A DNA stretch of 64,000 bases from Cetobacterium somerae (GTDB taxonomy: Bacteria; Fusobacteriota; Fusobacteriia; Fusobacteriales; Fusobacteriaceae). This document shows, piece by piece, positions 42,713 through 44,322 of the stretch. How positions within the stretch are numbered: the stretch's first letter is position 1; each line of letters begins with the position of its first letter. Location of the stretch: positions 1,676,454 through 1,740,453 of the forward strand of contig NZ_CP092519.1 of the NCBI RefSeq assembly GCF_022430525.1, in the 5' to 3' direction. The position numbers were made by a program, and so were the translations under genes. The notes beneath the pieces are model-generated. The model was not told the DNA's origin, did not search any database, and saw only the letters and a program-made list of their open reading frames with translations.

Positions 42713-42740
42713 TTGTATTATTTTTTATTTGTGTTATAAT
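42713..42740 (+). promoter_or_regulatory. Promoter of the tyrosine-leader/symporter unit
   Basis: A perfect -10 TATAAT at 42735-42740 with a weak -35 TTGTAT at 42713-42718 (spacing 16). It is divergent from the promoter at 42632-42660. Confidence 0.7.
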
Positions 42741-42768
42741 ACTTCAAATAATTATGAGGAGGAAAGTA

Positions 42769-42825
42769 ATGAAACAAAAAATAGTTTTTAATACAAATGC
42801 ATATTACTACTATTATTTAACCTAG
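42769..42825 (+). CDS. Tyrosine-rich leader peptide, MKQKIVFNTNAYYYYYLT
   Basis: An 18-codon ORF with a near-perfect ribosome binding site (GAGGAGGAAA at 42757-42766) and an ATG, ending in TAG. Codons 12-16 are TAT TAC TAC TAT TAT (42802-42816): five consecutive tyrosines. It lies about 25 bases downstream of the -10 and is followed by alternative hairpins and a terminator before a transporter gene. The peptide itself is unlikely to have a function; a run of one amino acid at this place is the signature of a ribosome-stalling attenuator that measures charged tRNA, here tRNA-Tyr. Mixed TAT/TAC use argues against simple repeat slippage. Confidence 0.85.
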   Translation: MKQKIVFNTNAYYYYYLT

Positions 42826-42949
42826 GATTGGTATTTTTGTTTCATGAAAAAATACGAATCCATTTTGCGTTACTTTAATAGTAGTGAGTGGATTTGTTAC
42901 ATAGAACTGGTAAATTACAGCCTGTGGATAAAATCCACAGGCTTTTTTG
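42802..42949 (+). promoter_or_regulatory. Tyrosine attenuator: mutually exclusive leader hairpins
   Basis: Elements seen: hairpin B, GGATT-G-GTATTTTT (42825-42838) with AAAAATAC-G-AATCC (42848-42861), 13 pairs with one G-G mismatch; hairpin C, AATCCA (42857-42862) with TGGATT (42889-42894) and inside it CGTTACT/AGTAGTG; the Tyr-codon segment ACTACTATTA (42806-42815), perfectly complementary over 10 bases to TAATAGTAGT (42876-42885); GTGGATTT (42888-42895), complementary over 8 bases to AAATCCAC (42931-42938) in the terminator's 3' arm. B and C share AATCC, so only one forms. Stalling at the Tyr codons would favour B, free GTGGATTT and disturb the terminator; ribosome release at the stop codon would mask B's 5' arm, let C form and permit termination. 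The model is inference. Confidence 0.7.
42919..42949 (+). terminator. Terminator at the end of the tyrosine leader
   Basis: AGCCTGTGGAT (42919-42929) and ATCCACAGGCT (42933-42943) give an 11-bp perfect stem with an AAA loop, followed by TTTTT, G and TTTTTTT. It lies 33 bases before the symporter ATG and after no full-length gene, so it is an attenuator terminator. Confidence 0.92.
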
Positions 42950-42981
42950 TTTTTTTAAAAAATTTTTAGGAGGAGTTTATT

Positions 42982-44322
42982 ATGTTTATTTTAGAAAGTA
43001 TCGTTAATTTTTTAAATTCAATTCTTTGGGGAAAAAATATACTAGTTGTTTTACTTATTTTTTCAGGTGTTTTCTTTACAGTAAAAACCAATTTTGTTCA
43101 ACTTCGTTTTTTAAAGCATATGGTCAAGCTTTTAACGGATAAATCAAATAGTGATTCTGAAAATCTTTCACCTTTTCAAGCCTTTTGTATAAGTACTGCA
43201 ACTAGAGTTGGAGCTGGTAATTTAGCGGGTGTTGTCAGTGCAATTTCTATTGGTGGTGCAGGTTCAATTTTCTGGATGTGGGTTGTTGCTTTTTTAGGTT
43301 CTGCTACAGCATTTGTAGAAACTACTTTAGCTATGATATTTAGAGAAAAAGATAAAACTGGTCATTTTTATGGTGGTCCTTGCTTTTTTTTAAAAAATGG
43401 TCTTGGTAAAAAAAGTTGGGGTATTGCTTTTGTAATAACTGGTATTATTTGTTGGGCAGGAGTTTTACAAGTTGTTTCAAACTCTGTTACCGAATCATTT
43501 AATGTAGCTTTTAATATTAGTCCAATGGTTATTTCTGCTCTTTTAACACTATTAGCAGCTATTGTAATCTTTGGAAAAACAGATAAAACAGCTAAAGTTT
43601 TAGATAAAGTAGTTCCTATTATGGCTGTAATGTACCTTGTTATTGTCTTTTTTATAATCATTAAAAACTTCGCTCTTTTACCTCAAGTTTTTTCTCAAAT
43701 ATTCTCAGAAGCTTTTGGAATTAGACAAGGAGTTGGAGGAACTATTGGAGCTATTATTATGCAAGGAGTTAAAAGAGGGTTGTTTTCTAACGAGGCTGGA
43801 ACAGGTAGTGCCCCTTGTGCTGCGGCTAGTGCTACAGTTTCTCATCCAGTTCAGCAAGGATTAATTCAAAGCTTAGGAGTTTTCGTAGATACTTTTATAA
43901 TCTGTACAGCTACAGCTTTAGTTATGCTACTTACTAAAGCCTCTGTTATAGATGGATTAAATGGTATGGAGTTATTACAAAAATCATTCAATTACCATCT
44001 GGGTTCAACTTTCGGTGAAATATTTGTAGCTATAATACTTTTTCTTTTCTGTTTCTCTACTCTTTTAGGAATCTGCTTCTACGGAAAAGTTAATGTTAAA
44101 TTTTTAACTGATAAAGAGTTTGGACAAATACTTTTTAAAATCTTTGCTCTTTCAATGATCTTTATAGGAGGAATACAACAAAATTTCTTTATGTGGAATC
44201 TTGCTGATCTTGGTTTAGCTCTTATGACTATTATTAATTTATCTGGTGTATTCCCTCTATCAAAATTTGCATTTGATTCATTAAAGGATTACCAGTCTAG
44301 ATTTAATCCTATAAAGGCATAA
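42982..44322 (+). CDS. AGCS family amino acid:cation symporter, probable tyrosine-responsive
   Basis: 446 residues, about ten membrane helices. Family signatures: SPFQAFCISTATRVGAGNLAGVV (the conserved loop), FWMWVVAFLGSATAFVETTLA, KRGLFSNEAGTGSAPCAAASA. The known AGCS members carry alanine or glycine with Na+ (AlsT, DagA). The leader peptide with five Tyr codons in front of it suggests the physiological signal, and perhaps the substrate, is tyrosine or another aromatic amino acid; nothing in the protein alone proves this. Good AGGAGG site. Single-gene unit closed by a terminator. Confidence 0.92.
   Translation: MFILESIVNFLNSILWGKNILVVLLIFSGVFFTVKTNFVQLRFLKHMVKLLTDKSNSDSENLSPFQAFCISTATRVGAGNLAGVVSAISIGGAGSIFWMWVVAFLGSATAFVETTLAMIFREKDKTGHFYGGPCFFLKNGLGKKSWGIAFVITGIICWAGVLQVVSNSVTESFNVAFNISPMVISALLTLLAAIVIFGKTDKTAKVLDKVVPIMAVMYLVIVFFIIIKNFALLPQVFSQIFSEAFGIRQGVGGTIGAIIMQGVKRGLFSNEAGTGSAPCAAASATVSHPVQQGLIQSLGVFVDTFIICTATALVMLLTKASVIDGLNGMELLQKSFNYHLGSTFGEIFVAIILFLFCFSTLLGICFYGKVNVKFLTDKEFGQILFKIFALSMIFIGGIQQNFFMWNLADLGLALMTIINLSGVFPLSKFAFDSLKDYQSRFNPIKA

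Follow-up and report, generated by a model that had tools for sequence, protein, structure and literature searches.

The enterobacterial trp, his, phe and leu leaders combine a ribosome binding site, a short open reading frame (ORF) in which codons for the sensed amino acid stand in a row, mutually exclusive helices and an intrinsic terminator upstream of the regulated gene. A homopolymeric codon run marks starvation sensing in the trp, his and phe leaders, while tyrosine genes are known to be regulated by TyrR and by T-boxes. The tyrosine T-box (RF00230), as upstream of Bacillus tyrS, controls this gene through tRNA-Tyr charging and a terminator, with the tRNA contacting the RNA directly and without a leader peptide. 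Among the RNA motifs reported by Breaker and co-workers, ilvB-II and uORFC-8-2 (cysS) were explained, later or immediately, as attenuators with upstream ORFs (PMC10272879, PMC8632094). The trpB motif (RF04312, SRC-39-1) was published in 2024 as a strong riboswitch candidate from Firmicutes and Fusobacteria; it mostly precedes the gene of an uncharacterised ABC transporter for amino acids, in some cases trpB, and its authors noted that a classic attenuator could not be ruled out (PMC11109978). The sequence-only reading of the locus described here knew of no tyrosine-only leader of this type in front of an AGCS transporter, and the open-access literature that we searched likewise does not describe a leader-peptide attenuator for tyrosine alone; older comparative-genomics work may predict Trp or Tyr cases.

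Here we analyze a 64,000-nucleotide stretch of Cetobacterium somerae DNA (the window), in which a candidate element of this kind (42713-42956) is flanked by a divergent gene and, downstream, the gene of an AGCS symporter. As judged from the leader anatomy, the conservation of the Tyr run, the exclusion and conservation of the helices and the linkage to tyrosine genes, the element is very probably a ribosome-mediated transcription attenuator with charged tRNA-Tyr as its signal and the symporter, probably a tyrosine importer, as its target. It is of the same kind as the trp, his, leu and phe leaders, though not exactly their plan as had been proposed: it senses tyrosine alone, has a chain of four alternating helices in which the terminator's 5' arm is a partner of segment C, and in our model the stalled ribosome leaves segment A uncovered. 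Unlike the tyrosine T-box, it would use a leader peptide to link tRNA-Tyr charging to the terminator, and ilvB-II and uORFC-8-2 differ from the Tyr leaders in amino acid, lineage and structure. None of the Rfam leader families matches the element above threshold. Its parts are as follows.

42713..42740 (+), promoter, recognized from sequence: -35 TTGTAT, 16-bp spacer and extended -10 (TG 42732-42733, TATAAT 42735-42740)
42756..42763 (+), Shine-Dalgarno sequence of the leader ORF, GAGGAGGA, also recognized from sequence
42769..42825 (+), leader peptide ORF of 18 codons plus stop (ATG 42769, TAG 42823-42825), encoding MKQKIVFNTNAYYYYYLT
42802..42816 (+), sensor, the five Tyr codons TAT TAC TAC TAT TAT
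42825..42838 (+), segment A (GGATT.GTATTTTT), beginning inside the stop codon; partner B
42848..42864 (+), segment B; alternative partners A (via 42848-42861) and C (via 42854-42864)
42887..42904 (+), segment C, the antiterminator strand; partners B (via 42887-42897) and D (via 42893-42904)
42919..42932 (+), segment D, made up of the terminator's 5' arm (42919-42929) and the loop; when the RNA reads through, C pairs with 42922-42932
42933..42956 (+), segment D' (42933-42943) and U tract (42943-42948, 42950-42956), completing the intrinsic terminator
42982..44322 (+), AGCS family amino acid:Na+ symporter of 446 aa with Pfam and NCBIfam matches; the regulated gene, a putative tyrosine transporter

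The strong ribosome binding site, the 18-residue ORF with five Tyr codons, the stop, the 11-bp terminator and the U tract that the sequence-only reading had reported are all present at their positions. So are its two hairpins sharing the arm 42857-42861 and its five GGAT/ATCC repeats, with GGATT at 42825-42829, AATCC at 42857-42861 and GTGGATTT at 42888-42895. Computed duplex energies are -12.4 kcal/mol for A:B, -14.0 kcal/mol for B:C and -17.7 kcal/mol for the terminator (42919-42929 with 42933-42943). The C:D helix consists of 42893-42898 with 42927-42932 and 42900-42904 with 42922-42926. As computed, mutually exclusive helices connect the end of the ORF to the intrinsic terminator. Only one other RBS-preceded short ORF in the window contains four identical residues in a row, which argues against a chance occurrence of the leader pattern. 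Other Cetobacterium leaders have a promoter closely similar to that at 42713-42740, and an SD-like sequence is also found in related leaders.

In the mechanism that we infer, a ribosome would translate the leader during its transcription by RNA polymerase. Under tyrosine scarcity it would stall within the five-Tyr run with its leading edge short of segment A; A:B could then form, leaving C free to pair with the emerging D, so that the terminator is blocked and the transporter gene is transcribed. With plentiful tyrosine the ribosome would reach the stop codon and, since this codon overlaps A, mask that segment; B:C would form, D would stay free and the D:D' terminator would end transcription. 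Starvation would thus switch the gene on. Since a stalled ribosome is predicted to leave A free and a ribosome at the stop to mask it, an untranslated leader should read through, which sets the element apart from E. coli trp.

Folding with ribosome masks, a check suggested by the sequence-only reading, reproduces this switch in the model, with read-through inside the Tyr run and termination at the stop codon. The ribosome was advanced codon by codon with an assumed footprint of 12 nt downstream of the A site, and helix-core probabilities served as the final measure. With the A site at Tyr4, P(A:B) is 0.97, P(B:C) 0.02 and P(C:D) 0.90 in the window, as compared to 0.00, 0.95 and 0.56 with the ribosome at the stop. 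In the leaders at loci L107, L129, L153, L155 and L180 the switch also falls close to where the Tyr run ends, less cleanly so in other units, and in L129 P(C:D) falls from 0.96 to 0.00 at the flip. Note that the mask itself forces A:B to be lost at the stop, but not the gain of B:C or, in L129, the loss of C:D. At Tyr1 and Tyr2 equilibrium folding of the window prefers B:C (0.78 and 0.69). A small competing hairpin in the unmasked stretch before A is the probable cause, and the model requires stalling at Tyr3-Tyr4 or a kinetic preference for the earlier-formed A:B. Similarly, C:D (-8.2 kcal/mol) is weaker than D:D' (-17.7 kcal/mol) and would therefore have to act kinetically.

A DNA search of the family in 61 genomes yielded 14 homologous leaders besides the window's own, and further leaders came from scanning 98 Fusobacteriota genomes for an RBS followed by a start and five Tyr codons, and for a looser form of this pattern. 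The RBS-ORF-Tyr5 pattern matched in 35 of the 98 genomes before the removal of false positives and the reversed control pattern in none. Some raw matches were false positives in the Leu frame or within genes, among the latter one in a chloramphenicol acetyltransferase gene (L163), and were not counted as leaders. Curated Tyr leaders, defined by a near-continuous run (four or more Tyr, or Tyr-Tyr-Tyr-Cys), occur in 35 of the 98 genomes and 10 genera, often with a different RNA sequence; this is a tally separate from that of the raw pattern, and the equal number is a coincidence. Outside the phylum, 193 assorted genomes gave a single match, in the Leu frame.

Tyr5 leaders precede orthologous AGCS genes in 16 genomes from 5 genera. 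An alignment of homologous leaders, proposed earlier as a check, shows that the run and the ORF are kept: all homologous AGCS leaders found retain Tyr5, with changes confined to synonymous TAT/TAC third positions. In 4 of the 16 genomes (genera g13 and g14) the AGCS gene is preceded by tandem attenuators, Tyr5 followed by Tyr6 or Tyr7, both complete with terminator. Tyr leaders of different RNA sequence stand upstream of tyrS in 13 genomes, and a second, distant TyrRS type likewise carries one in 6 genomes (runs YYYC, YYYCY, YYYCN or YYYYC). The recurrence of the same leader kind upstream of tyrosyl-tRNA synthetase genes supports the tyrosine-sensing interpretation. TrpX-like ABC substrate-binding proteins have a Tyr leader upstream in 4 genomes, again of different RNA sequence. 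Those of genus g12 (L149, L150, L249) encode FAYW or STYW plus Tyr6-7 and contain, near the end of the ORF, AAUAAUAAGCAG (L149, L150) or UAUAAUAAGCAG (L249), complementary to a second terminator located downstream (CUGCUUAUUAUU in L149 and L150, CUGCUUAUUUUU in L249); this complementarity suggests a different, longer-range switch. In genus g25 (L181, L183, L185, L189) a conserved RBS-preceded short ORF (e.g. MKRSVFLNLELPLFVPLFSDTWDDL) with no Tyr run lies upstream of tyrS, and no terminator was noticed there. The flanks of the leader loci also contain, above the Rfam cut-off, a c-di-GMP-I riboswitch aptamer and a group II intron domain (L129:1713-1788 and L107:2946-3030, both on the minus strand).

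The sequences of segments A to D vary between leader groups. Nevertheless, the same four helices recur among leaders of strongly differing RNA sequence: A:B, with A at the stop codon, B:C, C:D and D:D'. We compared the duplex energy of each unit's own segment pair with that of segments swapped between units. For 19 Tyr units the cognate pairs were favored for A:B (z -5.1), B:C (z -4.8), C:D (z -6.7, p at the permutation limit) and D:D' (z -8.8), the permutation sets containing related, not fully independent units, which dilutes rather than inflates the scores. The A:D and B:D controls showed no excess over permuted partners in these units. A second set of 22 His, Pro, Trp and aromatic units replicated the result (A:B z -8.5, B:C z -8.4, C:D z -4.5; controls null). 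Examples of C:D are GUAUCCUAAA/UUUAGGAUAU in L129, CUAUGAGA/UCUCAUAG in L180 and GUAUUGAUAG/CUAUUGAUAC in L211. Because the A/B/C core hardly varies inside the AGCS group, the compensatory evidence comes chiefly from the comparison between groups; the A:B helix is unclear in the g12 TrpX leaders as well as in the second units of the tandems. In many units a U-rich, UUUUGU-like motif lies just 3' of the A:B hairpin and may be a hairpin-dependent polymerase pause site.

These comparisons identify C:D as the conserved antiterminator, with 42893-42904 pairing to 42922-42932 on the 5' side of the terminator. The sequence-only reading had instead let C (42888-42895) pair with the 3' arm (42931-42938) as the switch. 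This 8-bp pairing does exist in the window, and nested on part of C:D it would add stability, for a combined -17.4 kcal/mol. As a conserved antiterminator, however, we reject C:D': it shows no cognate excess in the 19 Tyr units (p 0.85), is missing from the first units of L107-L111 and reaches a weak excess (p 0.009) only in the 22 independent units, making it an unlikely switch.

The regulated gene encodes an AGCS protein (PF01235, 454 bits in Pfam; TIGR00835, 443.6 bits in NCBIfam) whose substrate we infer from its relatives. A segment of the protein occurs at 100% identity in an uncultured Cetobacterium MAG. In a phylogenetic tree a supported branch (95/87) separates the AGCS genes with leaders from same-genome paralogues and outgroups. 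Elsewhere in the window's genome (L007, G000:C1:1340921-1344580) a tyrosine phenol-lyase (TPL) gene (TIGR02618, 838 bits; cut-off 720.7) is directly followed by an AGCS gene with an in-frame internal deletion. This remnant is 51-58% identical to the leader-bearing clade, and the other paralogues tested reach at most 49%, so the clade probably handles tyrosine, an indirect assignment for which the TPL-linked relative is the best support. Downstream genes are part of tyrosine metabolism in the case of tyrS and the second TyrRS, and indirectly in that of AGCS.

A permissive Rfam scan matched RF04312 to the window end-to-end over the B:C hairpin and the terminator (model positions 1-107; 34.7 bits against a cut-off of 59, E 0.0015), and other Tyr units score 41-43 bits. 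At E<=0.001 the model matches 38 of the 98 Fusobacteriota genomes, all under the cut-off; none of the 98 reaches 59 bits. Outside the phylum 0 of 80 genomes matched, and a Bacillota sample gave 4 of 399, of which at least 1-2 resemble chance terminators. Among the genomes around G538, a center with an above-threshold match, 52 of 298 exceed the cut-off; its order is apparently Lactobacillales, as guessed from Lactococcus being the sole responding control genome.

Nearly all of the 22 Fusobacteriota matches listed have a short ORF with a sensor run ending 13-39 nt upstream. At these below-threshold matches the runs are mostly His4-5, but also Pro, Trp and FWYFYYF, and the downstream genes encode HisZ-like proteins and amino-acid substrate-binding proteins (His), PutP (Pro), TrpX (Trp) and DAHP synthase (aromatic run). 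In the best-scoring 30 above-threshold loci, which are not a random sample, a Trp-containing leader ORF lies just upstream in all 30 and two Trp stand close together in 27, compared with 6.3% and 1.9% at random positions in the same loci. These Trp leaders are mostly of the form WQ(S/N)W(R/H) and mostly upstream of TrpX or trpB. Two Pro-codon leaders, at L274 (NPTVPR) and L286 (QPIPPR), precede the sodium/proline symporter gene putP and are candidate proline-sensing attenuators. The window's genome has a second RF04312-like match at G000:C1:409409-409517 and, at L275 (G000:C1:853418-853533, minus strand), a His4 leader, MSQLFVVLNSLHHHHRY, of the same architecture upstream of an amino-acid ABC substrate-binding protein.

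The window shares with RF04312 the B:C hairpin and the terminator, whereas the Rfam model omits the leader ORF and segment A, and the above-threshold members read carry Trp leaders where the window has Tyr. If the element were an outlying trpB-motif member and a metabolite riboswitch, with B:C as a ligand-binding P1 hairpin and the upstream ORF incidental, this match would be accounted for, in line with the discoverers' proposal of a riboswitch (PMC11109978). Yet the score lies below the cut-off, the ORF keeps its Tyr run through synonymous changes whereas the sequences of B, C and D vary between groups, leaving no evident conserved ligand pocket, and the leader residue follows the gene (His with hisZ, Pro with putP), with Trp in all above-threshold loci read; we regard a riboswitch as very improbable. 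Based on the upstream sensor ORFs and the helix tests repeated in 22 units, RF04312 probably corresponds to the 3' half of a leader-peptide attenuator whose ORF and segment A lie just outside the model. It is likely that the elements form a modular four-helix class whose codon sensors (Tyr, His, Pro, Trp, mixed aromatic) can be exchanged and which acts on transporter genes, biosynthesis genes and genes of aminoacyl-tRNA synthetases, both in Fusobacteriota and in one Bacillota order (apparently Lactobacillales), the trpB motif being its truncated description.

The leader could also work with the opposite sign, an excess of tyrosine causing an arrest-peptide-like stall, as in TnaC, and switching the gene on for export or catabolism. 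The read-through state was deduced from footprint geometry and the direction of AGCS transport is a putative one, which leaves room for this reading. However, the same leader kind precedes tyrosyl-tRNA synthetase genes, expected to be induced by uncharged tRNA, the sequence outside the Tyr run varies between groups, unlike in arrest peptides, and a homopolymeric codon run is a hallmark of starvation sensing; taken together, these make the opposite sign highly unlikely. The sequence-only reading had named a T-box or metabolite riboswitch as alternative structures; a T-box or known riboswitch was rejected, as Rfam covariance models gave no above-threshold match at the locus and RF00230 none there or elsewhere in the window's genome. 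Matches to manA-II, Thr_leader, OmrA-B and HrrF were far under the cut-off and were taken as chance.

For the trpB motif, with more than 900 reported members, a leader-peptide attenuator class would offer a translation-dependent and directly testable mechanism instead of a hunt for a ligand. For transporters of unknown specificity the class would also supply probable substrates, tyrosine in the case of the AGCS clade and histidine in that of an ABC system. In Fusobacteriota, a phylum with human-associated members, it would provide a readable amino-acid starvation regulon.
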